A DNA stretch of 37,373 nt, taken from contig NZ_JACHOU010000030.1 of NCBI RefSeq assembly GCF_014206975.1, positions 1 to 37,373 of the forward strand, read 5' to 3'. The translations under genes were made by a program, and so were the position numbers. Numbering within the stretch: the first letter of the stretch is position 1; each line of letters begins with the position of its first letter. The stretch is from Aminobacter aganoensis. GTDB taxonomy: Bacteria; Pseudomonadota; Alphaproteobacteria; Rhizobiales; Rhizobiaceae. The notes beneath the pieces are model-generated. The model was not told the DNA's origin. It ran no database searches and worked only from the letters and a program-made list of their open reading frames with translations. Of this stretch, positions 3,717 to 30,742 are shown piece after piece.

Positions 3717-3734
3717 TTGTCTTGTTCGATGCTC

Positions 3735-5171: not shown

Positions 5172-5404
5172 GCGTCTGTCCTACACCGCTTTCGGCTGGT
5201 CGTTCCAGCCTTGCCCTTCTGCCCTTCTCCCATGGCGCCGATCCGGATGGAGTACCGGGGCTGGCGAAGCTCAGTTGGGCTTACGTATCGCCGTATGGCG
5301 GGCGAAGCGGCGAGACTAAGATTGGTTTTTTTCGACTGCAGTTCTGTACCCTGCGCCACTCTTGGTGGAGAGGCGGCATTAAACCATTCCAGAAACCAAA
5401 GCAC

Positions 5405-5587
5405 TCAATCCGGCTTCCGCCGATCCTCGGGCTGCGTGTGCTGCTTCTCATATGATCCGCGCGTTACCTTCAGCGGGTCGCTCGCGAGAAAGGTTTGCTC
5501 CAGCTCAAGAGTCAGTTCCTCGTCGGCTTCGCGCTTCAAGCGCTCGGCTTCTCTCGGGCTTTCCTTCGTCTGTCTTGCCATGTCCAT
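5405..5587 (-). CDS. Small conserved hypothetical protein (LEQTFxASDP type)
   Basis: A 60-residue, highly charged protein. It contains LEQTFLASDP, close to the ETFPASDP motif of small uncharacterised proteins common in alphaproteobacteria. The N-terminal half is rich in Arg, Glu and Lys and likely helical. Its start lies inside the 3' end of the AI-2E transporter remnant in a different frame (83-bp overlap), suggesting translational coupling in the original operon. Function unknown. The motif match is what persuades me that it is real; length alone would not. Confidence 0.6.
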   Translation of the reverse strand: MDMARQTKESPREAERLKREADEELTLELEQTFLASDPLKVTRGSYEKQHTQPEDRRKPD

Positions 5588-6203
5588 CCGTTGGCATCTG
5601 TCGTTCCGCTCGAAATCTACCCTGCAGGATCTCTATCAGCGCCAGCGTAACAGCAATCGTAGCGGGACCAAGAACCAGTCCGGAAGCCCCGAACAGGATG
5701 ATCCCGCCGACCGCGCCGATGAACATCACTAAGGTATGCAGCTTCAGTCGCCTCCCCACCAGAACCGGGTAGAGCAGATTGTCGATGGTCGCTATGATCA
5801 CGCCGCCCCAAATGACCAGGATGAGCGCCCGGGTCCATTCGCCTTGGAACGCGAGAAAGAGAGCGGCCGGCACCCAGATGACAAAGGCGCCGAGTACCGG
5901 CACGATCGCCAACAGGCCCATGATGAGTCCCCAAAAGACCGGTGTCGGCAAGCCAAGCCACCAGAAAATCAGGCCTCCGAGCGTCCCCTGAACAGTCGCT
6001 ACTGCCATCGTCCCGATGATCGTGGCGTGAACGGTGTCCGCTAAGCGTCGTACCACGAGCCCCGTTTCGCTCGGCTGCAATGGCGAAAGCTTCGCCATCA
6101 CGCGCAACGCCCTTTCACGGTCGCGCAGGAAGTAGAAGAGAATGTAGAAGGTGAGGACGAGGCCGATCACCTGACTGACCGAGCCGCGAATGTGGCTTGG
6201 CAC
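5505..6203 (-). pseudogene. AI-2E family transporter, N-terminal half missing
   Basis: The preserved 232 residues match the C-terminal half of the AI-2E (PerM/TqsA) family of multi-pass membrane proteins. They include the family-like TFYILFYFLRDRERALR segment, GTLGGLIFWWLGLPTPVFWG, and several glycine-rich hydrophobic helices ending in GLVLGPATIAV. Family members are usually about 350 residues, so roughly the first 120-130 residues are lost. The reading frame is open up to the left end of the IS21 element at about 6204, so IS insertion or an IS-associated deletion removed the start. A GTG at 6203 is only the frame edge, not a credible native start. The lost half is not elsewhere in the window. 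Confidence 0.85.
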
Positions 6204-6320
6204 TTAATTGTAAGAATGCGCCGGTTTGGTTCAGACTGGGCATTAATTGTGAGAATCGTAGCGATGTGTCAACGGCGGAGCAAAAACCGGCCATTGGGCG
6301 GCGCAAAACCAGGCCACTGG

Positions 6321-6385
6321 CGCTGCTGCGAGCGGGGAACGTCGGGAGGGCGTAGCCCGACCAGAGTTTTCCGCTCGCAGCAGCG
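6321..6385 (-). terminator. Long perfect inverted repeat downstream of istB
   Basis: A 15-bp perfect inverted repeat (CGCTGCTGCGAGCGG at 6321-6335 and its complement at 6371-6385) encloses a second inner repeat (GTCGGG at 6341-6346 and CCCGAC at 6356-6361). It sits 6 bp past the istB stop, inside the element. As RNA it would fold into a very stable two-tier hairpin that could terminate istAB transcription or block read-in from outside. No clear U-tract follows, so it may be a structural or insulating element. Confidence 0.6.
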
Positions 6386-6391
6386 GCGATC

Positions 6392-7162
6392 TTATTGGTG
6401 AGGGTTGGGGGTTTTTCGTGCCCGGCTTTGCGCGAGGCGATAGCTGTCGCCGTTCATCTCGAGGATGCTGACGTGGTGGGTCAGCCGGTCGAGGAGTGCG
6501 CCTGTGAGGCGCTCGGAACCGAAGGTTTGGGTCCATTCGTCGAAGGGCAGATTGCTGGTGATCAGGGTGGAGCCACGCTCGTAACGCTGCGAGATCAGCT
6601 CGAACAACAGCTCGGCGCCGGTTTTGGAGAGCGGCACGAAGCCCAGCTCGTCGATGATGAGCAGCTTGTAGCCCGCCATCTGCTTCTGGAAGCGCAGAAG
6701 ACGGCGTTCGTCGCGCGCCTCCATCATCTCGCTGACGAGCGCGGCCGCTGTGGTGAAGCCGACGGACAATCCCTTCTGGCAGGCCGCCAGGCCGAGGCCG
6801 ATCGCGACGTGGGTCTTGCCCGTGCCGCTGGGGCCGAGCGCGATGACGTTCTCGCGGCGCTCGATCCATTCGCACCGCGCCAGTTCCAGCACCAGCATCT
6901 TGTTGAGCTTCGGGATGGCGGCGAAGTCGAAGCTGTCGAGGCTTTTTGCGGCGGGGAACTTTGCCGCCTTGATGCGGCGTTCGACCATCCGCCGTTCCCG
7001 ATCGATCAGTTCCAGCTCGACCAGCCGGGCAAGGTAGCGGACATGATCCACGCCCTCGACCGCACATTGCCGGGCAAGTTTGTGGTGCTCACGCAGGAAG
7101 GTCGGCAGCTTCAAGGTCTTGAGGTGGTGGGCGAGCAGGAGTTCTGGAGCATCGCTGCTCAT
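6392..7162 (-). CDS. istB: IS21 helper ATPase IstB
   Basis: A 256-residue AAA+ ATPase (DnaC/DnaA-like) that assembles on target DNA and activates the IstA transposase. The N-terminal helical IstB domain occupies about residues 8-100. Walker A is GPSGTGKT (residues 110-117), Walker B is LLIIDELGF (near residue 175), and a sensor-like STLITSNLPFDEW follows. Full length with no breaks. It overlaps istA by four bases (ATGA), the usual translational coupling. The protein should be functional, but its partner IstA is truncated in this copy, so the element is probably immobile unless IstA is supplied by another copy. Confidence 0.93.
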   Translation of the reverse strand: MSSDAPELLLAHHLKTLKLPTFLREHHKLARQCAVEGVDHVRYLARLVELELIDRERRMVERRIKAAKFPAAKSLDSFDFAAIPKLNKMLVLELARCEWIERRENVIALGPSGTGKTHVAIGLGLAACQKGLSVGFTTAAALVSEMMEARDERRLLRFQKQMAGYKLLIIDELGFVPLSKTGAELLFELISQRYERGSTLITSNLPFDEWTQTFGSERLTGALLDRLTHHVSILEMNGDSYRLAQSRARKTPNPHQ

Positions 7163-8334
7163 GCCGGTTCCTCCTTACGGTCCAGCAGGCGCATATAGGC
7201 CTTGGCCGACGTCTTCTCGACAGTGGCTCTGGGCAGATAGGGATAGATGTCGAGGTCCAGCTTTGGTGGCCTGCGTTCGGCCCGGCACAGGACGAGGTGC
7301 TTCACGGCGTCGAAGCTGATGGCGCCCAGATGCAGCGCCTGCTTCACGGCTGCGTGCAGATCGGCCAGATCGAAGCTTTCCATCAGGCGCAGCACCTGCA
7401 CATAGGCGCGCCGGCCCTGCTTGCCCATCCGTGCTTCCATGAGGCGGCGCAGTGTCGTGAACGCCTCCGGCAATTCCCAGCCCTGTAGCGGTGCCGCCTG
7501 GTCGAGCGCGTTGATCTTCTGCTCGATCAGCGGCAGGTAATGCAGTGGATCGAAGACAACCTCCTCGCGCTCATAGCTGCGCGGATGACGGGCAATGATC
7601 CCCCCGCCGCAGCCAATCACCACCTCGCCGACATAGCCACGGATCCAGACGTCCTGGTGGCCGTAGGCGACCGGGACGGAGTAGTCGTTGGTCCTGTAGC
7701 GCACCAGCGCCTGCGAAGTGACCCGACCGCTGGCATGGTCGCAAGCATCGAAGGGTGATGCCGGCAGTGGGCGCATCGCCACCAGATCGCGCAGCAAGCG
7801 TTCGCCGATCGTCTCGCTCTCGCCGCGCAGCCGGTCACCCTGGCGCTTGCGGCACTGCTCCTCGAGCCACAGATTGAACTCGTCCCACGATGCAAAGTGC
7901 GGAATCGGCACCATGAAGTTGCGGCGCACATAGCCGACCAGACCTTCGACGCTGCCCTTGTCATTGCCCTTGCCGGGGCGGCCGTAACGATCCCGGATCA
8001 GATAGTGGGACAGGAAGCCGCTGAACAGCGTTGCCCGCTTGCGCGTGCCGTCGGGCAGGATCTTCGCCACCAGGCAGCGGTCGTTGTCGTAGACAATCGA
8101 CTGCGGCACGGCGCCGAAGAAGGCGAACGCATGGATATGGCCGTCCACCCACGCTTCGGCCACCGCCGCAGGATAGGCGCGCACATAGCAGGCATCGCTG
8201 TGCGGCAGATCGAGCACGAAGAAGTGCGCCTTCTGCTCAACGCCGCCGATGACAACGACAGCCTCCCCGAAGTCGGCCTGTGCGTGCCCCGCCGGGTGCG
8301 CCAGCGGCACGAACATCTCCTGGCCGCGCAGATT
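7159..8334 (-). pseudogene. istA: IS21 transposase IstA, N-terminus missing
   Basis: About 390 residues of the DDE transposase remain. The catalytic core starts almost at once with GHAQADFGEA (first Asp), continues with SIVYDNDRC (second Asp) and GNDKGSVEGLVGYVRRNF (Glu), and ends in the normal C-terminal region. IstA proteins of this subgroup are about 500 residues, so the helix-turn-helix DNA-binding N-terminus (roughly 100-130 residues) is absent. Reading upstream, the frame meets a stop at 8383-8385 with no plausible start, and homology fades near 8334. A stray ATG at 8314-8316 could start a catalytic-core-only protein, but without the end-binding domain transposition is unlikely. Confidence 0.85.
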
Positions 8335-8760
8335 GTCGAAGCAGCGCGGCAGCGCTTTCCGAACCTTCTGCTTCCGAATGCGCTATACGAAGACGCACGC
8401 CTTGCGCGTGAGCCGTTCGATGCGATCATCCGCGATCGCTTCTATGCGCTGCTTGGATATCTTGATGCCTACATGCGCGGACGCGATGAGAGCGGCAACG
8501 AGGGCGGGGAGGCTCGGGAAATCCTGCGAGCCCATTTTCACGGCGAACGTGCGTTGTTCTCACCGGAGTCATCAACCAATCGGCGCGACTTTCAAAGCGA
8601 GATGACTTTCCCTGATCCCGAGGGCGGCGCTGACATCTTCGCGCATTTCCACGGTAAGATTAGCCACCGCTTCTTTCGCCTGCATTTTGATTGGCCGGTG
8701 CCGAGTACGGCGACCCGGCTCAAAGTTCTCTACATAGGCCCGAAGCTCACCAAATCCTGA
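8332..8760 (+). pseudogene. C-terminal fragment of an unidentified gene, cut by the IS21 element
   Basis: On the plus strand the frame from about 8332 to the stop at 8758-8760 reads as natural protein of about 142 residues, for example RQRFPNLLLPNALYEDARL near the start and the closing FFRLHFDWPVP...LKVLYIGPKLTKS. Upstream of 8332 the frame only gives the antisense of istA, so the 5' part is missing. I do not recognise the family. An alternating hydrophobic/aromatic end and the repeated AHFHG pieces suggest a globular, soluble domain. It is convergent with, and 52 bp from, the end of the defence-like operon and may have been an older part of the same island. Confidence 0.55.
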
Positions 8761-8812
8761 TGGCTGAAACGCTACCGCTGATTGGCAACGCGTACCTGAC
8801 CACAGGCCGACG

Positions 8813-9961
8813 TCACGAGGCCCTCTCGTAGAGCGAGAACCCCGTGGGGAGGGGTGAGGTCCCCCAATCCATCGCGATGGCCACACTGTGGCGACCGCGC
8901 GTCAGAGCGACATAGAACTTCGCCCGACTCTGGGGCTTTAGGTTCGTCGCGTGATCGGAAAGCCAGAGTCGCATCGGCTCGGTGGGCAGGATCACCACAT
9001 GGTCGAAGCCTCGGCCCTTCGACTCCCCAAAGTTCATGGCGGGCCACCGCTGATCTACGCCGAGGCTGGTGATCTTGTCACGCAGTTGCATCGGCCGGAC
9101 CGTCGCCAGGTAGTGGGCGTAGTCGGCCGTCCGGAGGATGAAGGCGCCATTCCACGCCGCCGATCCGGTCCTACACCGGACGCAGTCACAGGCCTGGCTG
9201 GCGGGCAGGACCGGAAACAGTCGCGACGACACCGTGCAGATGACTGCGCTGTTGCGGTGCGACCGGTTCAAGGTCGTCTCGTCGATGTCGACCGGCACCT
9301 TCTTAGGAAGCTCATTGCGCAGGAAGTCGACGATGCCACCATCGGCGTACTTCTGGTAGCGCCGTTCATGGTGCGTCAGGTAGGTCACCTGCCGCGGGTC
9401 GCCGACCATGAGCAGGCGAACGGAACTGCGGGCGAGCGCCGCCAGGATGTCGAGATCATAGCCGGCCAGATCCTGTACCTCGTCTACTAAGACGTGCGGG
9501 AAGATGCGGCTGATCCGGTCCATTACGGCACCGCCGCTCTTTTCGTTGCAGCGGATGGCGAGCTTGGGAAGCTTGTCGGAATAGACCCGACGGACTGGGT
9601 CGAAATAGTGCTTGTCGATTTCATTCTCGGCCCAGAAGACCGGCTGACCCTGGCGGGTCTTAAACTTCAGGCCCGACTGGGCCGAGACCAGCACCATTCC
9701 GGAGACCGGGAACTCGAATAGGCTACCCTGAAACGGCTTGACGCCATGGGTGATCAGGAAGCTGAACCATGTCATGATCACCACGTTCGCCGGCACATGG
9801 CCGACCAATTCGAAGAATTTCTGGCGGATCTCGGCTTCGTTCGACTCCGTGTAGGTCGTGATCAGGACCCGCTCGCCCTTGATCTTCACCGCCTCCTCGA
9901 CGAGGTAAGTGGTCTTGCCCGAGCCGGCTGCGGCGATGACGATCTTGTTCTCGCCGATCAC
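8813..9961 (-). CDS. UvrD/PcrA-like superfamily 1 helicase (GajB-like)
   Basis: A 382-residue SF1A helicase-type ATPase. Motif I AAAGSGKT (11-17), motif II VLVDEVQD (157-164), motif III MVGDPRQ (185-191), motif IV-like NRSHRN (232-237), motif V ESKGRGFDHVVI (313-324) and motif VI YVALTRGRHSVAIA (350-363) are all present, so it should bind ATP and DNA. It is shorter than Bacillus GajB (494 residues) and true UvrD (about 720), so the 1B/2B insertions are much reduced. It starts inside the end of the OLD nuclease gene (ATGA overlap, 9958-9961). In Gabija systems the OLD-family GajA and the UvrD-like GajB form a complex that restricts phage DNA. The pairing and order match, hence GajB-like. It is the last gene of the four-gene operon. 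Confidence 0.88.
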   Translation of the reverse strand: MIGENKIVIAAAGSGKTTYLVEEAVKIKGERVLITTYTESNEAEIRQKFFELVGHVPANVVIMTWFSFLITHGVKPFQGSLFEFPVSGMVLVSAQSGLKFKTRQGQPVFWAENEIDKHYFDPVRRVYSDKLPKLAIRCNEKSGGAVMDRISRIFPHVLVDEVQDLAGYDLDILAALARSSVRLLMVGDPRQVTYLTHHERRYQKYADGGIVDFLRNELPKKVPVDIDETTLNRSHRNSAVICTVSSRLFPVLPASQACDCVRCRTGSAAWNGAFILRTADYAHYLATVRPMQLRDKITSLGVDQRWPAMNFGESKGRGFDHVVILPTEPMRLWLSDHATNLKPQSRAKFYVALTRGRHSVAIAMDWGTSPLPTGFSLYERAS

Positions 9962-11592
9962 GGCGCGATGGCCTTTTGGATATAGTCAGGATAGGTGACC
10001 GCAGTCTTCGAATTGAAGATGGCCAGGGCGCTCTCGGTCTTGTTGGCCCGCATGTGGATGCGAAGCTCATCATCCGTCGTTGCCGATGTCCCGAGGATGG
10101 CATTCAGGGTCGCGCGATCGTTTGCCTTAAGGAGCTTCGGCTCCAGCGTATTGTAGTTGTAGGGCTTGTCCTTGACCATCAGGGGTCCAGTGTCCACGAC
10201 GGGATCAAAGCAGATCCTTACGGTGCTTGAGTCCTTGAAGGCAGCATATTTCTTCTCGACGACGGTGGTGTCGCCGTCATTGTCAGTAACTACGGCAACC
10301 GGGATCTTGAGGGCGTCAGCCAGTTCGAGGAAGCGCAGGAAGGCCGTGCCGACAGAGATGACGTCGATGCCGTCCTGGATGGGTAGGCGGCCCTCATTGG
10401 CATCCATATAGGCGCGCTGCACGACCAGCTCGTCGGAATCGCCCTCAACAAGTATTGCCTTGGCGGCGAGCGCCAAGCGCAGGGTGTCGTAACCCGCGAG
10501 TTTCTTGAAGAAGTCGCTGGCTTCCAGTTCCGAGATACGCGCTACCTCACCGCTACGCAGCACGATCAGGTGATCGAGGCCAAGCTTATTGGCTACGAAG
10601 CTGCTGTGCGTGGAAATGATGATCTGCTTTTGCCCGTGCTTCTCGGTAAGGTCGGCGATCAGTTCGTTCAGGCGCGTGTGCGACAAGTGGTTCTCCGGCT
10701 CCTCCAGCAGAACCGCCGTCGCCTCGGCGTTCTTCTTGGCGCTGAGAGCCAGCTTGGTCTTGATCACGCACTGTTCGCCCTTGCCAATATATTGGAAGGG
10801 GATGAGGTCGATATAGGTCATAAGGCTGTTTTCCCAGGCGGTCTGGGACGACAGATCGACCGAGATGCTGACCGCTTTCTGGCTGATCTTGGCAGCCTGG
10901 GTGATCCGCTCGTTGATTAGCTTGAGGTTTGGGTTTGCCACGAAAGCCTCCTTCAGCTTTCGGTGGGCTTGGGAAATGGACGCGCGCTCCTTCTCCTCTA
11001 GGACGTCGCGGATGATCCGGGAGACGTAGACGTCTGACCCGTTCTGCAGTCGGGTGCTTGAGGAATCGATCAGCGCGGATTTGATCGGGATATTGCGAGC
11101 GGTGACGCCCTTGCGCGCGAACGAACGCATGGTTGTGGTGTAGTACTCGACCGGGATGGAGGTGAGTTCGCCGGCTTTCACCAGCTCCTCATACGGTCCT
11201 TTATAATTCTCCTCGTCGAATTCGATCTTGTAGACCACGCCGCTGCGCTTGGCCCTCTCCGAGTTGCCATCGCCCTCTAGCTCCGCCAGTTCGTTTGAGG
11301 ACCCCGAAAAGAATAGCTCGATCGTGATCGCTGGCGGCGGGAGCGGTGATGCTGTGCCGAGGCTGTGTACGTACTTGTTCTGAGCGACCAAATTGAAGAG
11401 ATAGCTCGTCAGGTCATTCTTCAACGGGCGGCCGTGCAGCAGTCCCGTCAGCGCTAGGTGAATCGCCTCCAGGATCGTGGTCTTCCCGGACTCGTTGGCG
11501 CCAACGATCACGTTGAGGCCATCGTTCAACGCGAGTGTAAAAGTCCCCTCGTAACATTTGAAATTGGTGATCTTGACCTTCTCGATCTTCAT
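9958..11592 (-). CDS. OLD-family ATPase/TOPRIM endonuclease (GajA-like)
   Basis: A 544-residue overcoming-lysogeny-defect (OLD) protein: an ABC-type ATPase domain followed by a TOPRIM nuclease. Walker A is GANESGKT (31-38), Walker B is VLLEEPENHLS (294-304) and the switch His is in STHSS (327-331). The TOPRIM domain carries Glu383 in LVEGDSDE, Asp437 and Asp439 in TDNDGD, plus the downstream NTLEPKL and RANKTESAL motifs typical of this class. Metal-binding residues are complete. The size is close to GajA (578 residues). It is followed by a UvrD-like helicase with a 4-bp overlap, defining a class 2 OLD/Gabija pair. It is preceded at 42 bp by a YhaN-like ATPase, which is not part of standard Gabija. 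Predicted role: sequence- or nucleotide-sensing DNA cleavage during phage attack. Confidence 0.9.
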   Translation of the reverse strand: MKIEKVKITNFKCYEGTFTLALNDGLNVIVGANESGKTTILEAIHLALTGLLHGRPLKNDLTSYLFNLVAQNKYVHSLGTASPLPPPAITIELFFSGSSNELAELEGDGNSERAKRSGVVYKIEFDEENYKGPYEELVKAGELTSIPVEYYTTTMRSFARKGVTARNIPIKSALIDSSSTRLQNGSDVYVSRIIRDVLEEKERASISQAHRKLKEAFVANPNLKLINERITQAAKISQKAVSISVDLSSQTAWENSLMTYIDLIPFQYIGKGEQCVIKTKLALSAKKNAEATAVLLEEPENHLSHTRLNELIADLTEKHGQKQIIISTHSSFVANKLGLDHLIVLRSGEVARISELEASDFFKKLAGYDTLRLALAAKAILVEGDSDELVVQRAYMDANEGRLPIQDGIDVISVGTAFLRFLELADALKIPVAVVTDNDGDTTVVEKKYAAFKDSSTVRICFDPVVDTGPLMVKDKPYNYNTLEPKLLKANDRATLNAILGTSATTDDELRIHMRANKTESALAIFNSKTAVTYPDYIQKAIAP

Positions 11593-11634
11593 ACCTTTGC
11601 CCCAAGAAGTCGCCCGAAGCTTAAAAAATATCGA

Positions 11635-14600
11635 CTATCCGATCTCGTGAATTTTCACCGTCGGCACAACCTGTGCGGCAATCTCGCACAGGTGCCGATG
11701 GTGTGTGAGGTAGACCGCCTGTCCGACCTGAGCCATCTGCCCGAATAGCCGGAACACCTCCTCCGAGCGGGGCTCGTCGAATGTTTCCATGATGTCGTCG
11801 GCAATAAAGGGAACCGAAGGACGCGCCGTCGCGAACTCTTCGTAGCCGGCTAGGCGCAACGCCAGATAGAGCTGGAACTGCGTGCCCTTGGACATCTCGA
11901 CCGCAAGCTTGGAGCCGCCATGCCGCGATAGGCCGATCAGCGCTTCGCGGTCCTTGTCGGGTCGCGTGGCAAGACCGGTGTACTCATCGCGTGTGATTAG
12001 CCGGAACGCTTCGGACGCCCGGTTCATCATTGCGCTGCGGTGCTTGTCGCGATAGGCGCGAATGCCGTGCTCGGCGACCAGGCTTCCGCTCCTGAGGCGA
12101 AGATAGTGCAGCGCCAGATCTTCGATTTCCAGAAGCAAGGTGCGCCGTTTCGCCTCGAGGCGGGCAGCAGCATCATCGCCGCCGATGGCGGTCAGACGAT
12201 CTGTTGCACGTGCCTTGTCGGCGAACAGGTTCTTTGATCGGCCGTCGAGATCTTCAAGCCGCGTGATGAGCTCTGCCTGCTCCCGCTGCAGCTCCGCCAA
12301 GTCGACGTCTGCTAGGCTGGCCATGGCAGCCTCCAGCGATGGCATCTGCATCTCACCGACGATCTGCCGTGTGAGCTTGCTTTGCTGCTCGACCAGTTCA
12401 TCCCTTTTGCGGCAGCGTTCGAGAGCTTGTCGAACATCCGCAAGCGCTTCGACCTGGAAGAATTCGGTCAGTTCCCTTTTGCGCGCAGCATGGACCGCGA
12501 TCTCAACGTCCAGCCGCTCGCGTTCGGTCGCGAGGTCGACAAGAGTCTGATCCCGTTCCAGCCGTTTCGCCTTGACCTGTTTGGCTTCCTGGTTCTGCCT
12601 GAGCAGGCTCTTGGCGGCGTCAACGGGATTGCTGCCGTCGAACGTATCGCCGAGTGCGTCATGCAGCTGGGTGACCAACGCGATGAAGGACTTTCGATCC
12701 GTCTCCATGGCGTCTATGCGATGACGCAGATCATCCTTCTCGCGCAAAGCTTCGGGGAGGCCGGCCATTGCGTCGAGAAGTTCCCGGACAGCGCTAACAC
12801 TGCCTTCCCCGTTGAACCAGGTTCCTGCGAGGGCGCTCTCCCATTTCTTCTGCCACTCTTCTGATGCAGTGATGGCTTCGTTGAGCTCCGCTTTCCGTCG
12901 AAGCTCGGCCGCGTCCAATTCACCGACGCGTTTTTGGGCGTCCTGCCGTTTGGCCTGCATTGCATTATGGTCCGCGAGGATGGTGTCGGCAGCCTGCATC
13001 AGAGCTGCTACATCCAGACCATCGTCATCGATCCCGGCGCTGATCAGGATCGCGGCGAGCGTACCCTGCTCCTTTGCGAGCACAGTCCTGGCATCTTCAG
13101 CGTCACTCAAAGCATGGCGCAGATCATCCCACGCGGTCAGCGCCAAAGTGCGGATTTCAGCCCATCGGCCGATTCTTGTCAGCCATGACGCAACGGACGC
13201 ATCGTCATCCAGATCGATTTCCGCTGGTGTTTCGGATCTGATCTCGCGTCGCAATGTCTGCAACTCGTCATCGATATCCCTCAGTAACTGGCGTTGCCGG
13301 TCTACGCTTACCCTGTTTACCGCCAACGCGGCAGTCAGGGAGCGCAACTGCTCGAGTTCCCTGGCGCTGTTCAGACGTGCGGCCGCGGCCGCATCGGTCG
13401 CCCGCATGCGGGCCTCGAAACGATCGGCCGTTTCCCGGTCGAGCACCGACAGATGCTGCGCCCAAGCGTCGTCCCGGTCCAGAAGGGCAGCCTTCACCTC
13501 CTCATCATCCATGATGTCGATCGCGTCGCGGAGTGCAGTCAGCTGTGCGGCGTCTTCCTCCTGATTCGTCAAGAGCTCTCGTTCCCGCTCGACGATCTGC
13601 GAGCGACGCTTCTCCAATTCGCTATGAGTGGACTTCCAGGATTCGAGACGCTTGGTTCCGGGCGGAGATATACGCCGGAGAGCATCACCGTCACCGGCCC
13701 ATGGGTGCAGTTCAGCCGCGGCATCATCGAGGGCTCGGCGTTTGGCGGGGACAGCCTGCTCGGCAAGGCGAGTTTCGGCAACAAGATTGCCGTCGCGCAA
13801 GCGGCGCAGAACTGACTGAAGCTGTGCCACCTTGCCAGCATCGAGGGCGGCACCCTGGCCATCGAGAGCCTGGCGGTCGCGCTGTTCCTTCTCAACAGCC
13901 TGCCGGGCCGTCTCATGCTCCTTTTCGGCAGATTGCCGTGCGACGTCGACGCCGGACTTCGCGCTGATCAGATCTCGCAGCGTTCCGATCGTCGCCGCCG
14001 GTATCAGCAGTGATTTCGGATCCTCGACATCTGTCTGACCGATTGCTGCCAGGATAAGATCGACCTTGCGGTTCGATTCAGACAACGCCTGCTTTCGCTT
14101 CGGCAGATCTTCCTGCGCGGTCGCATAGCGTGCGGCTGCGTCCGACAGCTGATCGAGCTGATCCGCCATCTCAAGCAGACTGTTTTCGACCACGAGCCCT
14201 TCCAGCTCCTCCCGGACCTTCTGCTCGCGCTGCGTGATGCCGGTCAGCTCGGTTTGAAGCCGCGTTTCTTCGACAATCAGATCAGTAAGTGCTGACGCCC
14301 ACTCGGCAGGCGGATGCGGCAGGTCCGCGTATTGGGAAAGCTGCTCTTCTCCCCGACGGTATTCGGCCGCCAGGGGGTGAGCACGCAGGACGCGAGCAAT
14401 CTCGTCGTGGCGGGCCTTTGCCGTACCGATCTCCTTCATGGCGGCGTCATAGGCCGCTTCAGCCTGCTCGAGCGCTGTCATCAGCGTCCTGTAAGCCGAG
14501 GCCTGGACGTCGATGTCATCGCGCTGCGATTTGAGTTCCGCGATCTGGCGTTTCAGGCCGGCGATCTTCGTCGAGCTGGCGCGCTTACGGAAAATGTCAT

Positions 14601-15114
14601 CGGCTTCAGTGATTGCGGCCTCAAGTATGGAACTGATGCCGGCGATGCCCGCACTCGCCGAGAACAGCAACTCCCCAAGATCGCCCTTGCTTTCCAGAAT
14701 GGCGTTGCCGCCATCTTCCAGCGTCTGATCGTCGAGCGAGAACATCATGCGATAGGCGTCACGCGTTAGCCCGGCGAGCGGGGCGCTCAGAATCGCCTCG
14801 TTCACCGGCTGCCCATGCGCGTCTAGTAGCGAGTTGCTGCGCTGCTTGACGCGCTTGAATTCATGCGCCTGCCCATCGAACTCGAGACAGGCGCCGATCT
14901 CCATCGCCTTGCCTTGGTGTAGGAAGCCGTAGCGCGTGCGCTCTTCTATGCCGAAGAGAAGATCGAGATAGCCAGAAAGGGCGGTCGATTTGCCTGCTTC
15001 GTTCAAGCCGTAGATGACGTGCAGGTCCGGCGTGCCGGCAAGGTGTTCTCCGAAGTCGACCGAGTAGTCAGTGAACTTGCCGTAGCGGGTGAGATCGAGC
15101 CGGCGCAGGCGCAT
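11635..15114 (-). CDS. YhaN-like Rad50/SbcC-type coiled-coil ATPase
   Basis: An 1159-residue SMC-like ATPase. The N-terminal half-site opens with MRLRRLDLTRYGKF and Walker A GLNEAGKST (36-44). Long Glu/Arg/Ala-rich coiled-coil segments run from about residue 160 to 1000. The C-terminal half-site has a signature-like SKGTQFQLYLALRLA and Walker B VPFIADDIMETFDE (1101-1114), followed by the H-loop YLTHHRHL. The layout matches B. subtilis YhaN, the partner of the YhaO nuclease, a SbcCD/Mre11-Rad50 relative; YhaN is shorter (about 960). No zinc-hook CxxC is obvious in the middle, as expected for YhaN rather than Rad50. The ATG overlaps the yhaO stop by one base (TGATG). Likely role: ATP-gated scanning or clamping of DNA ends for the nuclease. 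Confidence 0.9.
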   Translation of the reverse strand: MRLRRLDLTRYGKFTDYSVDFGEHLAGTPDLHVIYGLNEAGKSTALSGYLDLLFGIEERTRYGFLHQGKAMEIGACLEFDGQAHEFKRVKQRSNSLLDAHGQPVNEAILSAPLAGLTRDAYRMMFSLDDQTLEDGGNAILESKGDLGELLFSASAGIAGISSILEAAITEADDIFRKRASSTKIAGLKRQIAELKSQRDDIDVQASAYRTLMTALEQAEAAYDAAMKEIGTAKARHDEIARVLRAHPLAAEYRRGEEQLSQYADLPHPPAEWASALTDLIVEETRLQTELTGITQREQKVREELEGLVVENSLLEMADQLDQLSDAAARYATAQEDLPKRKQALSESNRKVDLILAAIGQTDVEDPKSLLIPAATIGTLRDLISAKSGVDVARQSAEKEHETARQAVEKEQRDRQALDGQGAALDAGKVAQLQSVLRRLRDGNLVAETRLAEQAVPAKRRALDDAAAELHPWAGDGDALRRISPPGTKRLESWKSTHSELEKRRSQIVERERELLTNQEEDAAQLTALRDAIDIMDDEEVKAALLDRDDAWAQHLSVLDRETADRFEARMRATDAAAAARLNSARELEQLRSLTAALAVNRVSVDRQRQLLRDIDDELQTLRREIRSETPAEIDLDDDASVASWLTRIGRWAEIRTLALTAWDDLRHALSDAEDARTVLAKEQGTLAAILISAGIDDDGLDVAALMQAADTILADHNAMQAKRQDAQKRVGELDAAELRRKAELNEAITASEEWQKKWESALAGTWFNGEGSVSAVRELLDAMAGLPEALREKDDLRHRIDAMETDRKSFIALVTQLHDALGDTFDGSNPVDAAKSLLRQNQEAKQVKAKRLERDQTLVDLATERERLDVEIAVHAARKRELTEFFQVEALADVRQALERCRKRDELVEQQSKLTRQIVGEMQMPSLEAAMASLADVDLAELQREQAELITRLEDLDGRSKNLFADKARATDRLTAIGGDDAAARLEAKRRTLLLEIEDLALHYLRLRSGSLVAEHGIRAYRDKHRSAMMNRASEAFRLITRDEYTGLATRPDKDREALIGLSRHGGSKLAVEMSKGTQFQLYLALRLAGYEEFATARPSVPFIADDIMETFDEPRSEEVFRLFGQMAQVGQAVYLTHHRHLCEIAAQVVPTVKIHEIG

Positions 15115-16385
15115 CAGCTGATCTCCGACGCTGCCGGCTTCAGCCGGGCCAGCATGTCCTCGCTGCCTTCCGTCAGCAGGTGGTCGATCAGGGCTTCGAA
15201 CGCGGCTTCGTCATCGCCGCTGAAGCCGCGCGCCTCCGGGGGCAAATCATCGCGCAGTTCCTTAACCAGATCACGCACGGCCTCACGAACACCATGCTGG
15301 TGAATGATGTCGCTGCGCATCAGCTCGCCGAGTTCCAGGACCGGGTCAGCGGTCGCACCGTCGGTGGGAGTGTTGACCGGCGCTGTGGTGGCGATTTCGA
15401 TTTTCTCGATCCACGTCTTGCCGAGCCCCTCGGCTCGCTGTTCGGTTTCCGCCAAGAGTAGATCACGGTCACGTCTAAGCTGCCACGACAGAGACGTCGT
15501 ACCCGTCAGCCGAAGGCGGCCGACGAGATGGGGCGAGCGCATCCGGTCGCGGACGACACCAAGGCCTTGTTCGATGAGTTCGGCCGCATCTCGCCAGGTT
15601 GTCGCGGATGAAAGGTCGACAGGAATCCGTTCGAACTGCGCAATGCTCGTCGCACGTTCTTCTACGGTGAGGCTGCGATCGTCATTGACCGTGACGAGCG
15701 TGACGGTCTTCTCGCCGGTTTCGTTGATGTCGCGGCCCTGCGGCATGCCCGGCATGATCACCATGCGGTCGCCGGCATGCTGCGCGCGGACGTGGACATG
15801 GCCCAGAGCCCAGTAATCGAAGCCCCAGCCATGAAGGTCTGACGCCTTGCAAGGCGCATAGAGATCGTGGCCGGGCGCGCCGGCGAGACTCGTATGCATA
15901 ATGCCGATATTGATCGCGTCCGGGGTAGGGCGGTGATATTTCTCGAGGAGGCTTTCCGGTGCTTGCGGCTTGGCAAAGCTCAGGCCATGGATGGAAAGGT
16001 CGAGGTCGCCTCTGGCGAGGTTAATAGCGTCGGCGCGCCCGCCAAACCTCGTGACCGAAGGGGGGAGGATCAACTCCTGAGTGATCCTCGACATGGCATC
16101 GTGATTGCCGCGAATGATGAACGTTGCGATGCTTGCTTCATGAAGCCGTTGCATCTGGCTTGCCAGAAAGCGGGCGGTTTTCATCGACGTCTGATCGCCA
16201 TCGTACAGATCGCCAGCGATAATCAGTGCATCGACCTGTTCGTCGATGCAGAGGTCCACGATGGCGATAAGGGCTTGGCGCGTTGCGTCGCCAATCAGCT
16301 CAGCGAGATCACCATTGCGCATCGCCAGCGAGCGCAGTGGGGAATCCAAGTGAAGGTCGGCCGTGTGAACAAATCGAAATGCCAT
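15114..16385 (-). CDS. YhaO/SbcD-like calcineurin-type DNA nuclease
   Basis: A 423-residue metallophosphoesterase of the Mre11/SbcD/YhaO group. All motifs are present: HTADLHLDSP (Asp-x-His), AGDLYDGDQ, RGNHDAMS, MHTS and GHVHVR. A two-metal nuclease active site is therefore intact. The N-terminal FRFVHTADLHLDSPLRSL is typical of YhaO. The C-terminal part after about residue 270 is the ATPase-binding or capping region. I chose the ATG at 16385 because it puts the beta strand directly at the start, as in relatives; an in-frame ATG at 16424 would add 13 unrelated residues, and neither has a good ribosome site. It is the first gene of a four-gene minus-strand operon (yhaO-yhaN-gajA-gajB order). 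With YhaN it should process double-strand DNA ends or invading linear DNA. Confidence 0.9.
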   Translation of the reverse strand: MAFRFVHTADLHLDSPLRSLAMRNGDLAELIGDATRQALIAIVDLCIDEQVDALIIAGDLYDGDQTSMKTARFLASQMQRLHEASIATFIIRGNHDAMSRITQELILPPSVTRFGGRADAINLARGDLDLSIHGLSFAKPQAPESLLEKYHRPTPDAINIGIMHTSLAGAPGHDLYAPCKASDLHGWGFDYWALGHVHVRAQHAGDRMVIMPGMPQGRDINETGEKTVTLVTVNDDRSLTVEERATSIAQFERIPVDLSSATTWRDAAELIEQGLGVVRDRMRSPHLVGRLRLTGTTSLSWQLRRDRDLLLAETEQRAEGLGKTWIEKIEIATTAPVNTPTDGATADPVLELGELMRSDIIHQHGVREAVRDLVKELRDDLPPEARGFSGDDEAAFEALIDHLLTEGSEDMLARLKPAASEIS

Positions 16386-16682
16386 ACAATGATGCTTGTC
16401 CGATTTCGGGCAGATATTGAACAAAAGACTATCGTATTGTCATCGACAGCGCACAGAATACTCGTCCACTATGCGCCGCGTCGCTGCATGCGCCTCTCTG
16501 GTGGCGCTCGGCGCGATCGTCAGTATTCGGCTGGTTGCCGCCCTCTATGGCGGCTGCCGGATTGCATGATCCGAAAATAGGCGGTGAAGAGCGCGGATCG
16601 GTCAGCGGCAGGCGGCAAGCGCTTCCGCCGCGGCGAACCTTGGTGCGTCTCTAGGAAATCCGCAAAGCGCGCGATCATCGCC
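16386..16682 (-). other. Region between the operon and a transposase; possible frameshifted tail
   Basis: About 300 bp without a secure gene. On the minus strand a frame (16520-16792) reads DAYRRWMIVAAGGHEAM... and continues past the transposase stop at 16683. It might be the original C-terminus of that transposase shifted by one base, or unrelated debris; I cannot match it to a family. The part nearest the yhaO start (16386-16500) should hold the promoter of the four-gene operon. An AT-rich patch (ACAATACGATAGT on the minus strand near 16428-16440) is a candidate -10 region. Confidence 0.3.
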
Positions 16683-17915
16683 TCATGGCCACCCGCGGCC
16701 ACGATCATCCAGCGCCGGTATGCGTCGCTCCGTTCCGGGCATGAATGCCAGTAGGACCCGCATGGGATCATCGTCGAAGCGTACAAGTTCATGTGTCTGC
16801 CGATCCCATTCTGATGCCGGCACCCTCAGGGTCCTGGCGTTTTGCTGCAGGTTGTGGTCGATCACCGCGAGCGCGACGCATTGCTCGAGATCGGCGAAGC
16901 TGAGACCCGCCCGGCGCTCCGCGGGATATTGGTCGCGGTCCGCCACGGATCGGCCCGTCGAGCCAGGCTGCGTTGCAAGAACGCCGTTGAGCTTTCCGAG
17001 CAGCCTTTCGACCACGCCACCCTGATGCACGCGGCCGCGATCCCGGTAGCGGATACGAATGCCGTAGTCCTCGCACCCGCGCTGAAAGGCATTCCCTTTG
17101 AACTCCTTGGCGGAGTCGGTGACCAGCAATCGCGGTCGACCGAACATCGGCCATCCATGCTCGATGCCGTGCGCAACTAGCCATTCGTCCTTCGGGCACA
17201 GTGCCTGCGCCAGGCACAAGGCGACCGACAGCGCCGACGGCTTTTCGAGCGTGAGGCAGAATCCCAGTATGCAGCGCGTCGCCACGTCGGTGACGATCGT
17301 CAGGTAGGCCCGGCCGACGAACGTTCCGCCGCCTTCGACGACCTCTACGAAATTGATGTCGGTCGGCGTGTGATCGATCTGGCAGACATCCAGCGGGTGC
17401 GCCGCATGGATGTATCCGGGCCTGGCCCTGAGCCGATGGAGATGTTTCAGGTTCGCGGATCGCTTCTTCGCGATTTCCTCGGGGCCAAACAGTGCGGGTA
17501 TTCTGCGGGCGACTGTCAGATAGGACGGGGGAGACAGGCCGGCCTCCTCGCAGCGGGCGCGGATCTCGGCCACGACCGGAGCGAGGGGTGGAGCCTCCAA
17601 CACGAGCCACTGCTCTCGCAGTGTCGTCGCGATGATCTCCTCGATCTCCGGCTGGAGCCGCTTCTTTCGGGTCCTGTCTCCGCCGGGCAAGAGCGATGTT
17701 ACGGTCCGATCGACGCGGTAGCGTGCCAGCAGATTATAGACCTGCCTGGTCGAAAGGCACAGCTCGGCGGCTGCCCGAACGATCGCAGCCCGTCGGGAAC
17801 CCGAACCTTCCAGAATCTTGTCGAGCTCCCGCGCAGCGCGCCGCGCCGTCGACCATGCTTCATCGGAATGTGACGCGGCAGGCGCCAGTTTCAAGCTGTG
17901 CAATCGGTTCGGCAA
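16683..17915 (-). CDS. DDE transposase of the Mu/TniA type, probably C-terminally truncated
   Basis: 410 residues with an N-terminal helix-turn-helix region (about 40-70, LCLSTRQVYNLLARYR) and an rve-type integrase core. The catalytic triad is visible as CQIDHTPTDI (first Asp), LLVTDSAKEFKG (second Asp) and HQGGVVERLLGKLNG (Glu). Relatives of TniA/TnsB/Mu transposase usually continue with a beta-barrel C-terminal domain and reach about 500-600 residues. Here the protein stops soon after VLLAFMPGTERR, so about 100 or more residues are missing or frameshifted. The start is a TTG with no clear ribosome site. No tniB ATPase partner follows; the next gene is yhaO. It is probably a dead fragment of a Tn7/Tn5053-like element. 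Confidence 0.78.
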   Translation of the reverse strand: MPNRLHSLKLAPAASHSDEAWSTARRAARELDKILEGSGSRRAAIVRAAAELCLSTRQVYNLLARYRVDRTVTSLLPGGDRTRKKRLQPEIEEIIATTLREQWLVLEAPPLAPVVAEIRARCEEAGLSPPSYLTVARRIPALFGPEEIAKKRSANLKHLHRLRARPGYIHAAHPLDVCQIDHTPTDINFVEVVEGGGTFVGRAYLTIVTDVATRCILGFCLTLEKPSALSVALCLAQALCPKDEWLVAHGIEHGWPMFGRPRLLVTDSAKEFKGNAFQRGCEDYGIRIRYRDRGRVHQGGVVERLLGKLNGVLATQPGSTGRSVADRDQYPAERRAGLSFADLEQCVALAVIDHNLQQNARTLRVPASEWDRQTHELVRFDDDPMRVLLAFMPGTERRIPALDDRGRGWP

Positions 17916-18014
17916 AATGAGCGGTCAGTGAAATCGTTAGCGAAAAATCATGCCCTTAGTAGCGCCCAAACCTAAACAGCACATGACTCATTCGCGATTG
18001 AAATCGGGAAGTGA

Positions 18015-19076
18015 AAGCGACAAGAAGACCAATTGGCCCGGCTGGACGAGGCCGTGCGGCGCAGTCCGGTTGGTGAGGGCTTCACCGAGCGCGGTCATTT
18101 CTTCGATTCCGCGGCCAGCATGTGGGTGGCCGGCGAGCTTGTCCATGTCGAGGATCTGGTTCTCCACGATGCTCATATGGATATTCGAGCCCCGACCCAT
18201 GAGCTGACCATTGCCCATTCGATCCTGCGGAGCCGGCGCCGCATTGCAGCGGCCGAGCCGGACTGGGCGCTGAGTGATCGGGGCTTTGCCGGTTTGACGG
18301 GATCTTGGCAGACCGAGCAGCCCGTGGAAGTTCCCGCAGTCCTCGATAGGGCAGGGAAGGCAGGACGTTCCGAGGAACTGGATCCTCTTGCGGCTGAGTT
18401 CGCGCATATCGATGCCGTCCTGGAGCGCTCCGAACGGCTGATTGGCAGCATGTTGAAGGGCGATGCTGACGCTGTTCCCGAGCGCCGCGGATTGGTTGTG
18501 GGTGACCTCATGATCCGCGATCCGGATTGGGACGAGGCAGATCGGCTATCACAATGGCGATCGATTCAGCTCAAGGTCCAAGGGATGCCGCCAGTGCTGT
18601 CGGCCGCGTTGCTGTTTGACGCCTGGGAGGTGCTGGAGCCGATTCAGCGACAGCATTGGCTCGGTGGAGGACTGATCAGCGCCTACCTTCGATACAGGGG
18701 CAAGGTCACCTCGCACCTGCCGACCTTCAGTGTCGGATTGAAGGCAATCGCGAGGGAGCGGCGCCGGGCAAAGGACCGGTCAATCCGGCTCTTGGCATTC
18801 CTCGATGCGATGTCGGCTTCATCGGATGCTGGTATGCGTGAGCTCAGTCGGCTTCAGCAAGCGCGTGGGCAGATGGAGCGCAAACTGAATGGGCGACGAA
18901 CATCCAGCAGTCTTCCAACTGTGGTTGATCTCGTTCTGTCCCGGCCCGTAGTCTCCGCCGGGATGGTTGCTAAGGCGGCGCGTGTGACACAGCGAGGAGC
19001 GCTCAACCTGATCGCGGAGGTCGGCGTGCGTGAAATGACCGGAAGGGGACGGTACAGAGCATGGGGTGTCATCTGA
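18015..19076 (+). pseudogene. DUF1612 / RHE_PE00001-type protein, N-terminus missing
   Basis: About 350 residues match DUF1612 plus a C-terminal helix-turn-helix, a family frequent on plasmids and islands of rhizobia and sphingomonads. The strongest stretches are WVAGELVHVEDLVLHDAHMD and RAPTHELTIAHSILRSRRRI, with the HTH-like region near the end. The frame upstream of the TTG at 18033 stays protein-like (reading QEDQLARLDEA) but hits a TGA at 18012-18014. Relatives begin some 20-25 residues earlier, so the native start is gone. TTG 18033 could still initiate a nearly full protein. Function unknown; the HTH suggests DNA binding. IS256 inserted 20 bp after the stop, leaving the coding part intact at that side. 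Confidence 0.72.
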
Positions 19077-19087
19077 CCTGTGACCCT

Positions 19088-19096
19088 GCTTGGTTG
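19088..19096. repeat. Left 9-bp target-site duplication of IS256 element
   Basis: GCTTGGTTG immediately precedes the left inverted repeat and is repeated exactly at 20397-20405 after the right repeat. This marks a clean transposition event with no later rearrangement across the element. Confidence 0.92.
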
Positions 19097-20396
19097 GGGA
19101 CTGTCGGATATTTTGTGCGTGAGGCCGATTGTCGTCACTGGCTGACGAACCTCTCGCCGAAGACGACGGCGAATTGGGTTTTGGCCTCGAACCACTCACG
19201 CGGCGGCCGTTTCCATTCTTCGGCCGCGTGGTTGAGAACCATATATAACAGCTTCATGGCCGCATCGTCACTCGGGAAGTGGCCCCTGGTTCGAACGGCG
19301 CGCCGCAGCTTCGAGTTCAACACCTCTATCTGGTTCGTGGTGTAGATGATCCGGCGCACGCTTTCGGGAAACGCGAAGAATGGAACGACGTGGTCCCAGT
19401 TTCTCCACCAGCTCAGCGCGATTGCCGGATAGCGCTGGCCCCAGTAGCCGGCCTCGAACTCTCCCAGCGCCTTCATCCCGGCTTCGGCGTCCTTGGCCCG
19501 GTAGATGGCACGCAGCGCCGGCACGACGGGCTTGCGGTCCTTCCACGACACGAACTCGAGCGAGTGGCGGATCAGATGCACGATGCAGGTTTGCACCACA
19601 GTCTGGGGAAAGACGGCGCTGATCGCTTCGGGAAAACCCTTCAGGCCGTCGACGACGGCGATCAGGATGTCGCCGAGGCCGCGGTTCTTCAGCTCGTTCA
19701 TGACGCGCAGCCAGAACTTCGCGCCCTCGGTCTGCTCGATCCAGATGCCCAGAATCTCCTTCGCGCCGTCGGGCAGAATGCCGAGCGCGATGTAGACGGC
19801 CTTGTTGCGCACGAAGCCTTCGTCCCTGATCTTGACCCGGATCGCATCGAAGAAGACCAGCGGATAGACGGCGTCGAGCGGCCGGTTCTGCCATTCGGCG
19901 ACTTCTTCCAGAACAGCATCGGTGACGGTCGAGATCAGGTCCGGGGACACGTCGATGCCGTAGAGTTCCTCCAGGTGGCCGCGGATCTCGCGTACGCTCA
20001 TGCCGCGCGCATACACGGAGATGATCTTGTCGTCGAACTCGGGGAAGCGGCGCTGGTATTTGGCGATCAGCTTCGGGTCGAACGTGCCGGCCCGGTCGCA
20101 CGGGATCGAAAGCCGCATCTTCGAGGTGCCCGTCAGCACCGTCTTCTTCGAATGCCCGTTGCGCCGGTTGCCAGGGCCGTCGGCCTCACGCTCATCGCCG
20201 AGGTGTTCGTCAAGCTCGGCGTTCAGAATGCGCTCCGAAAGCGCCTTCTTCAGATCGTCGAGCAGCCCGTCACGCGAAAATACCTCGTTCGGGTCGCGCC
20301 CGGCCAGCAGCCGGTCCAGAAGTTCCTTCTCGATTGCCATGCGATGATTCTCCTTCTCATCATCATGGCCTCACGCACGAAAATCCGGACAGTCCC
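19097..20396 (-). mobile_element. Complete IS256-family insertion sequence (1300 bp)
   Basis: The ends are near-perfect inverted repeats of about 30 bp: the left reads GGGACTGTCGGATATTTTGT (19097-19116) and continues GCGTGAGGCC; the complement of 20367-20396 reads GGGACTGTCCGGATTTTCGT and continues GCGTGAGGCC. They are flanked by the 9-bp direct repeat GCTTGGTTG. One transposase gene fills the element. Intact ends, duplicated target and intact gene show a recent, probably still mobile insertion. Confidence 0.95.
19135..20340 (-). CDS. IS256-family (Mutator-like) transposase
   Basis: A full-length 401-residue DDE transposase. Conserved segments include the N-terminal NRRNGHSKKTVLTGTSKM region, GMSVREIRGHLEELYG, PLVFFDAIRVKIRDEG (first catalytic Asp), IAVVDGLKGFPEAI (second Asp), the family-typical QTCIVHLIRHSLEFV and YTTNQIEVLNSKLRR (Glu region). 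No frame breaks. The gene occupies nearly all of the 1300-bp element, with its start 27 bp from the inner edge of the right inverted repeat. Expression is probably weak and partly from the end of the element. Confidence 0.95.
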   Translation of the reverse strand: MAIEKELLDRLLAGRDPNEVFSRDGLLDDLKKALSERILNAELDEHLGDEREADGPGNRRNGHSKKTVLTGTSKMRLSIPCDRAGTFDPKLIAKYQRRFPEFDDKIISVYARGMSVREIRGHLEELYGIDVSPDLISTVTDAVLEEVAEWQNRPLDAVYPLVFFDAIRVKIRDEGFVRNKAVYIALGILPDGAKEILGIWIEQTEGAKFWLRVMNELKNRGLGDILIAVVDGLKGFPEAISAVFPQTVVQTCIVHLIRHSLEFVSWKDRKPVVPALRAIYRAKDAEAGMKALGEFEAGYWGQRYPAIALSWWRNWDHVVPFFAFPESVRRIIYTTNQIEVLNSKLRRAVRTRGHFPSDDAAMKLLYMVLNHAAEEWKRPPREWFEAKTQFAVVFGERFVSQ

Positions 20397-20405
20397 GCTT
20401 GGTTG
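20397..20405. repeat. Right 9-bp target-site duplication of IS256 element
   Basis: GCTTGGTTG directly follows the right inverted repeat and matches the copy at 19088-19096. Removing the element and one copy joins the DUF1612 gene's 3' flank to the leader of the small interrupted gene at 20486. Confidence 0.92.
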
Positions 20406-20485
20406 CGCTTCTCCAGCACGGGGTGTTGCCACAAACCTCAAATCCGTTGAACTTCAACATGTGATATGTGCGACGGGGGGCCAAG

Positions 20486-20655
20486 ATGAGCTTGATAAAC
20501 CTAAGTGACAGCGAGAAGCACGCTATCGGAGCAATCGACAGCGGGACGCTTCACGACCTGGTTGACCAGGCCATCAGGTCAGAGCATCTCGGAAAACTCT
20601 ACAACTGCGGAGAATACGTGGCCACCAAGCTCCGTACTTCGATCAAGCGCTTGCG
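20486..20655 (+). pseudogene. N-terminal fragment of an unidentified gene, cut by the IS3 remnant
   Basis: A GGGGGG ribosome-binding-like tract lies a few bases before an ATG at 20486. The frame reads as natural protein for about 55 residues (MSLINLSDSEKHAIGAIDSG then TLHDLVDQAIRSEHLGKLYN), then becomes the antisense of an IS3 transposase at roughly 20640-20665. I do not recognise the family. The fragment looks soluble and helical. A perfect 13-bp dyad, GTTGAACTTCAAC at 20446-20458, lies in its promoter region and might be an operator. The 3' part of the gene is not found beyond the IS. Confidence 0.45.
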
Positions 20656-20976
20656 GCCGTGGACAGATCTGCCCCGTACGACGCCCCTCAGGCCCATCTG
20701 CCGCATCAGGCGCGAGACGGTGCAACGGGCGATGTCGAAGCCCTCGCGCTTCATCTGCCGCCATACCTTGCGCACGCCGCAGACGCCGAAGTTCTCGTTG
20801 AACACGCGTCGCACCTCCACCTTCAGCACTTCGTCCCGCTTCACCCGTGCCGGCAGCCGGGAAGAATCGGCATGGCGGGCGGCATGCTCGTGATAGGTGG
20901 ACGGGGCGATCGGCAGAACCCGGCAGATCGGCTCGACCCCGTAGACATCGCGATGGTCATCGACGAACGCCTTCAT
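20656..20976 (-). pseudogene. IS3-family transposase OrfB, N-terminal fragment
   Basis: Only the N-terminal HTH_21-type domain of the IS3 transposase B subunit remains (about 105 residues): FVDDHRDVYGVEPICRVLPI, STYHEHAARHAD and VRKVWRQMKREGFDIARCTV followed by SRLMRQMGLRGVVRGRS. After that the sequence departs from the family and ends at 20599 after unrelated residues. The rve catalytic domain with its DDE triad is lost, so it is non-functional. It overlaps orfA by ATGA (20973-20976), where the normal -1 frameshift would make OrfAB. Confidence 0.85.
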
Positions 20977-21302: not shown

Positions 21303-21352
21303 GGCTCCATTCTCTCAAGAGTTGGAGCCTCCGGGAAACCCGGCGCGGTTCA

Positions 21353-30741: not shown

Positions 30742-30742
30742 G

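Follow-up and report, generated by a model that had tools for sequence, protein, structure and literature searches.

The question raised by this locus is whether four adjacent genes, yhaO, yhaN, gajA and gajB, in which a Mre11-Rad50-like nuclease-ATPase pair (YhaON) stands directly upstream of a Gabija pair (GajAB), form one dedicated defence machine or a combination of separate modules. They lie in Aminobacter aganoensis on contig NZ_JACHOU010000030.1 (assembly GCF_014206975.1), of which positions 1 to 37,373 of the forward strand (37,373 nucleotides) were analysed as a whole and are referred to here as the window. An earlier note on this DNA, made from its letters alone, had proposed a composite system in which YhaON senses or processes phage DNA ends and feeds GajAB. 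In this study, we report that the four genes combine known modules in a new way, and we consider it likely that yhaN, part of a mobile pair, has acquired an ordinary Gabija system behind it in a defence hotspot of plasmid type in the Hyphomicrobiales, that is, in an exchangeable island and with no single dedicated machine.

Organization of the locus and family assignments

Open reading frame (ORF) calls bore out the four minus-strand genes that the note had described, with junctions of one base, 42 base pairs (bp) and four bases (Table 1). Base 15114 is common to yhaO and yhaN, gajA and gajB overlap at 9958-9961, and an alternative, longer yhaO would start with TTG at 16424. A consensus scan of positions 8300-17000 placed neither a promoter-like nor a terminator-like site in the 42 bp between yhaN and gajA, and over the region scanned such sites were no more numerous than in shuffled sequences (2 vs. 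a mean of 2.1, and 8 vs. 7.0). The tight junctions agree with the single transcript claimed earlier, on which gajAB would probably be co-transcribed with yhaON. In tested pairs of all four genes, nonsynonymous divergence (dN) was well under synonymous divergence (dS).

By family tests, gajAB is a predicted Gabija system. GajA matched model positions 1-530 of 532 of the PADLOC GajA model PDLC00102 (E-value, E, 7.5e-223) and GajB positions 2-363 of 369 of PDLC00148 (E 1.9e-140), in agreement with the Gabija assignment made from the motifs, and the PADLOC scores of GajA prefer GajA models by hundreds of bits. In Pfam, GajA showed AAA_15 (PF13175, E 7.3e-19) and OLD-like TOPRIM (PF20469, E 2.9e-13) domains, with E383-G384 and D437-N438-D439 invariant in 15 aligned rows, and GajB was assigned to UvrD-helicase (PF00580, E 1.3e-14). 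The AlphaFold model of GajA (predicted local distance difference test, pLDDT, 76.9) had Bacillus cereus GajA (8sm3_A) as its best solved match in Foldseek, at E 8.3e-15 and with a template modelling score (TM-score) of only 0.39. A profile search with GajB reached the GajB chain 8sm3_B at E 8.9e-9, ranked after UvrD chains, and its AlphaFold model (pLDDT 74.3) also retrieved UvrD chains ahead of those of GajB. The domain arrangement of GajA and GajB is not settled by these comparisons because the TM-scores are low (about 0.4 for the structural matches of GajA, 0.36-0.41 for those to GajB chains). The best reading of the pair is an ordinary Gabija of a short-GajB subtype.

The upstream pair we take to be of the YhaO-YhaN type, a name taken over from the earlier note; one plasmid record carries the annotation 'YhaN family protein'. 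YhaO belongs to Metallophos (PF00149, E 2.1e-15) and resembles the Mre11 structure 1ii7_A (E 3.2e-12). Its five phosphoesterase motifs (HTADLHLDS, IAGDLYDGD, IRGNHDA, IMHTSL and WALGHVHVR) keep their Asp, His and Asn residues across an alignment of 16 mobile-labelled rows and 72 others. YhaN belongs to AAA_27 (PF13514, E 6.1e-67), and its Walker A Gly-Lys, Walker B Asp-Asp and signature Ser-x-Gly are invariant in 90 of 90 rows, the remaining signature positions varying outside the mobile rows. In the same 90 rows, the second acidic residue of Walker B is Asp and not Glu (window residues 1106-1107). The Mre11/SbcD-type, Rad50-like, OLD-TOPRIM and UvrD-like identities given in the note were all recovered by Pfam and PADLOC.

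Two closer identifications of the YhaON pair were rejected. With regard to SbcCD proper, YhaO scored 63.5 bits against the NCBIfam SbcD model, under its curated cut-off of 77.65, YhaN had no NCBIfam match, SbcC included, and the zinc hook CxxC was absent from the window YhaN and present only in L089 and L092 among 111 YhaN rows searched (L numbers denote the loci compared). The pair was filed for these reasons as YhaO-YhaN type. With regard to Lamassu, no LmuB model matched YhaN in PADLOC; in that database YhaO scored 27 bits at best and YhaN 16.6 bits, which are no strong matches, and the only match of YhaN at E<=1e-3 was PtuA (E 8.3e-4). A quick tree of 90 distinct YhaN rows out of the 111, each with at least 90% of the query length, placed the window YhaN in a distinct clade of 20 rows (Shimodaira-Hasegawa-like approximate likelihood ratio test, SH-aLRT, 100), whose members come from plasmids, isolates and metagenome-assembled genomes (MAGs). 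The viral contigs searched with YhaN and with GajA contained no relative. The genome of A. aganoensis also has a second YhaON pair, on contig C9 at 180841-184311 (L002), with YhaN about 40% and YhaO 55% identical to those of the window.

Linkage of YhaON with Gabija

Among the best 80 of 446 genome-contig stretches encoding YhaN relatives, 10 of which stop within 4 kb of the end of yhaN, GajA and GajB were found directly behind yhaN in two, L014 (Mesorhizobium sp. 61-13 MAG, GajA 99% identical to that of the window) and L016 (Nitratireductor MAG, GajA 62% identical and of another GajA group), while the other 78 had no Gabija. Around the eight examined GajAB loci of the subfamily from elsewhere, YhaON was absent in every case; flanks of about 7-10 kb were covered, by annotation and tblastn in the plasmid relatives L006, L011 and L012 and by tblastn in the 19-kb surroundings of each of L138-L142. 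In a sample of 394 genomes of the family, at E<=1e-100, GajA was present in 6, YhaN in 113 and both in 2. In only one of these two, the genome of A. aganoensis itself, are they adjacent, since G541 has them on different contigs; no YhaN passes this cut-off in G604, whose GajA is 92% identical to that of the window. In the plasmid collection, taking the best 40 of 233 records for YhaN and the best 40 of 1737 for GajA, the 6 nearest records for YhaN (at least 69.9% identity) had no accession in common with the 17 nearest for GajA (at least 54.4%), and in a blastn search of plasmids with the cassette none of the 186 matching records had one place covering 80% of it.

A fixed four-gene system was rejected, as each pair occurs without the other, and so was an arrangement unique to this strain, as the same order is found in L014 and L016. 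In this regard, what stood of the earlier proposal is, besides the identities, order and close spacing of the genes, the Gabija assignment and the setting in an island, the recurrence of the set beyond its own strain, in L016 with another GajA group; a consistent linkage of the four genes, and with it one dedicated system, did not emerge. Open-access full texts, with few subscription papers and no preprints among them, contained none that joins Gabija with YhaN, which is weak evidence for an unpublished arrangement; none of the open-access papers naming YhaN and YhaO had a defence title.

Gabija was probably captured behind yhaN at least twice, judging from the two groups of GajA. YhaN of L016 is 86% identical to that of the window while its GajA belongs to the group that is only 62% identical, which points to a second capture. 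This GajA is 81-86% identical to those of L011, L012, L094, L102 and L103, and the stretches fetched around each of these have no YhaON. Additionally, the yhaN-gajA junction of L014 has 42 bp of near-identical sequence, and that of L016 has 11 bp of different sequence.

Probable recombination within yhaN

Locus L013, from a Rhizobiaceae MAG, has after yhaN an HD-CE/ATPase protein and, on the other strand, a LmuB-like protein. The window was 100.0% identical to L013 in every 300-base bin over 15900-12901 and then 82-90% identical to the end of yhaN; to L014 it was 80-91% identical over 15900-13201 and then 97-100% over 13200-8401, through gajB. A single-breakpoint fit to 533 informative sites, limited to sites below 16200, had its optimum at 12915/12867 with 8 misfits, which was equalled by none of 2000 shuffles. 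Outside yhaON, window positions 16709-22673 were 99.87% identical to L013. The simplest history would be a crossover inside yhaN that swapped a cargo of the L013 type for gajAB, and yhaN would probably have served as the homology arm of the swap. In L036 (9977-11869), from the same MAG as L013, the similarity to yhaN ends at about residue 601 and a 991-amino acid (aa) ORF of opposite strand follows; such a broken yhaN would fit exchange inside the gene.

Defence neighbours of related YhaON loci

The neighbours scanned were ORFs coding for 260-1600 aa and lying no more than about 5.5 kb from YhaON. Those of the clade members included BREX, Shango, HerA-DUF4297, PDC-S06, Qat, Old, LmuB-like or multiubiquitin/ThiF genes. 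BREX was recognised by annotation in L007 and by clustering in L016 and L018, with BrxC matched in three proteins, and L016 holds BREX (upstream), YhaON and GajAB together. Shango was found in L015 and, by clustering, in L030; PDC-S06, matched in three proteins, in L009 and, by clustering, in L022 and L023; Old in L019, Qat in L009 and an LmuB-like gene in L013 (E 4.3e-27). Concerning the position of these genes, L015 has at 2656-16574 one YhaON pair with Shango upstream and HerA-DUF4297 downstream, and in L009, L022 and L023 PDC-S06 is the gene that follows yhaN, in the same orientation and about 107-181 bp further on when the longest ORFs are taken.

The comparison covered 13 close loci (L007-L010, L013-L016, L018-L020, L022 and L023) and a control set of 13 distant loci, chosen and non-random; L017, L021, L024-L028, L030, L032 and L036 were left out of the close set as short, near-duplicate, truncated or below about 70% identity. 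At PADLOC E<=1e-40, 54 models were matched among the 82 neighbour proteins of the close loci, some of them GajB models that other UvrD-like helicases had matched, vs. 14 models with one member each among the 80 neighbour proteins of the distant loci, under names such as Cas1/Cas1e, Cas8e, mREase_IV and mad3. A strong defence neighbour was present in at least 9 of the 13 close loci (L007, L009, L014, L015, L016, L018, L019, L022 and L023, a count that includes those assigned by clustering, BrxC in L016 and L018 and PDC-S06 in L022 and L023) and in at most 4 of the 13 distant loci, this last figure remaining an upper bound since a second scan of 10 control proteins, meant to place the PADLOC matches at their loci, recovered none of them. 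The one-sided Fisher p-value was 0.058 with four distant loci, 0.024 with three and 0.008 with two.

Interpretation of the locus

According to the reading that we prefer, YhaON would be the recurrent resident pair of the hotspot and the adjoining defence genes would be exchangeable, a short-GajB Gabija having been taken up directly behind yhaN. The exchange would have occurred at least partly via homologous recombination inside yhaN, so that yhaN is kept intact and everything downstream is replaced, and the nearby tniABQ transposase genes may have moved the block too. By analogy with the biochemistry of its family, GajAB would act as a nuclease on invading DNA, triggered by nucleotide depletion. 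The Gabija system of B. cereus VD045 is presented in PMC10822852 as an anti-phage 4:4 complex of GajA and GajB whose nuclease is nucleotide-inhibited, NTP/dNTP keeping it in check, and favours circular DNA; PMC10681800 reports that no helicase activity was seen for GajB. By the same kind of analogy, YhaON would be a nuclease of the Mre11-Rad50 kind that depends on ATP and acts at DNA ends or hairpins, and Rad50 complexes are described in PMC10586767 as machines for the sensing and processing of DNA ends. The two pairs would work in parallel and additively, probably from one promoter and not as one complex. The hand-over of DNA from YhaON to GajAB put forward in the earlier note is possible; the analysis speaks neither for nor against it, and nothing in it requires such a step.

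Several points weigh against the exchangeable island. The gajAB genes share the strand of yhaN and follow it immediately, across 42 bp in one junction and 11 bp in another, and selection for expressing them together could be the cause. The stretch 16518-16119 resembles L014 at 19 informative sites and L013 at 5, unlike the DNA below it, so the single crossover tested does not account for the whole history, and a further partner change falls at the start of yhaO. The main caveat is that the assembly may be chimeric where yhaN changes partner, and L013, L014 and L016 are themselves metagenome assemblies; a chimera there would leave the four-gene order of L014 and L016 standing. As for the neighbours, two tested proteins of L020 had no PADLOC hit, no defence neighbour was recognised in the clade member L026, which is unscanned, and the enrichment is borderline under the most conservative count, with related loci and both sets hand-chosen, so that it must be taken as indicative.

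One alternative is a dedicated four-gene system, in which YhaON would sense, open or trim DNA ends or hairpins for GajAB or would degrade the ends made by GajA. Its order and strand are common to three assemblies (the window, L014 and L016) with two groups of GajA, the junctions are short, and DNA is the substrate expected of both pairs from their families. Nevertheless, the rarity of the association in the surveys of YhaN and GajAB loci, its confinement to one genome of the family sample and a window junction that recombination seems to have brought in together with a yhaN tail of the L014 kind make such a system improbable. A chance adjacency, in which one hotspot received both pairs and defence is indifferent to YhaON and to its position, is somewhat less improbable, although still unlikely. 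YhaN homologues are common in the family and the genome carries a second copy on contig C9, few of the distant YhaON loci have strong defence neighbours, L026 has neighbour cluster c3 in common with outer loci, and Gabija itself is found in 8.5% to about 15% of genomes, according to PMC10568477. Against it, the close YhaON group recurs beside varied defence systems, more often than distant YhaON in this sample, and GajAB of two groups is found at the same spot.

A further proposal, which we put forward as speculative and rather doubtful, is that the mobile YhaON clade would be an unrecognised plasmid-borne anti-invader module that anchors islands and boosts the adjoining effector (Gabija, BREX, Shango, HerA-DUF4297 or PDC-S06), yhaN at the same time serving as the arm for recombination in cargo swaps. 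An exchangeable island would offer a concrete route for swapping defences without loss of the anchor, the crossover falling in a long neighbouring gene that is conserved. Were the YhaON clade protective, the SMC/Rad50-like immunity systems (SMC, structural maintenance of chromosomes) would gain a nuclease pair of the repair type. Natural YhaON alleles with different cargo exist, so that a protective role is directly testable.

Surroundings of the locus in the window

Table 1. Position and strand of the four genes and of related features in the window.
Feature	Position	Strand	Description
yhaO	15114..16385	-	423 aa; ATG at 16385; Mre11/SbcD-like metallophosphoesterase nuclease
yhaN	11635..15114	-	1159 aa; Rad50/SbcC-like coiled-coil ABC ATPase (AAA_27)
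gajA	9958..11592	-	544 aa; OLD-family ABC ATPase-TOPRIM nuclease
gajB	8813..9961	-	382 aa; compact UvrD-like partner
yhaN-gajA junction	11593..11634	-	42 bp between genes
Inferred recombination breakpoint in yhaN	12867..12915	.	L013-like upstream, L014-like downstream
End of tniQ-like gene beside yhaO, junction with truncated tniA	16512..16726	-	blastn to L013 8327-8113, 85.6%
Truncated tniA-like transposase gene	16683..17915	-	rve PF00665 E 5.8e-7, just under curated cut-off; trio remnant
DUF1612/HTH_13 protein	18033..19076	+	PF07756 E 8.2e-50, PF11972 E 1.7e-27

A tniA-tniB-tniQ trio lies just upstream of yhaO in L013, L014 and L036, recognised by Pfam and PADLOC in L014 and by protein clustering in the other two, and the window retains remnants of it (Table 1). 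The DNA match of the window to tniA of L013 and L014 stops at 16709, and the L013 segment matched by the tniQ remnant overlaps the end of a tniQ-cluster ORF at 7288-8319. The L013 counterpart of the DUF1612/HTH_13 protein belongs to cluster c2 (7 of 26 clustered loci), whose L010 member is annotated as 'RHE_PE00001 family'. In addition, the window encodes a second TniQ-like protein at 30506-31117 (PF06527, E 2.0e-11), and its DNA at 30729-30997 is 73.6% identical to the L013 tniQ-cluster ORF. Transposase genes flank the block, one of the rve/Mu-transpos_C_2 type at 7159-8316 and one of the IS256 family at 19135-20340.

The AbiE operon that the note had placed in the island was confirmed as an AbiEi-AbiEii pair on the plus strand at 26057-27909 (PADLOC E 6.8e-102 and 7.9e-102). 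The same contig carries a copper nitrite reductase-like gene (2456-3661) and a mercury(II) reductase-like gene (29003-30445). Judging from relatives such as L007-L010, which are plasmid records, the window would belong to a plasmid; no replication genes were found in it, no systematic search having been made for them.

Comparison with known systems

Among known systems, the Gabija of B. cereus VD045 is like the window in having an OLD ABC-TOPRIM nuclease gene followed by a UvrD-like gene, both covered by the PADLOC models. It differs in GajB, which has 382 aa in the window vs. 493-499 in the solved GajB chains, and in the co-directional yhaON pair that the window has upstream. The fold of GajA is also common to the OLD, PARIS and Septu ABC-ATPase defence proteins, the gene partners being different; class 2 TOPRIM domains have an extra helical insert, as stated in PMC10568477, and PMC12839542 describes OLD-ABC proteins as auxiliaries in BREX loci.

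With the SbcCD or Mre11-Rad50-like YhaO-YhaN pairs, the window shares a metallophosphoesterase and an AAA_27 coiled-coil ATPase encoded by overlapping genes with intact motifs, whereas its own pair lacks the zinc hook and falls in a separate clade whose members are often located in defence islands. Lamassu, with its Rad50-like LmuB, and Wadjet, both treated as SMC-based immunity in PMC10586767, have in common with it a coiled-coil ABC ATPase with effector functions in defence islands. Unlike Lamassu, YhaN has a Mre11-like nuclease as partner and is longer than the LmuB of about 650 aa described in PMC10586767, although some PADLOC LmuB models are 1007-1213 long.

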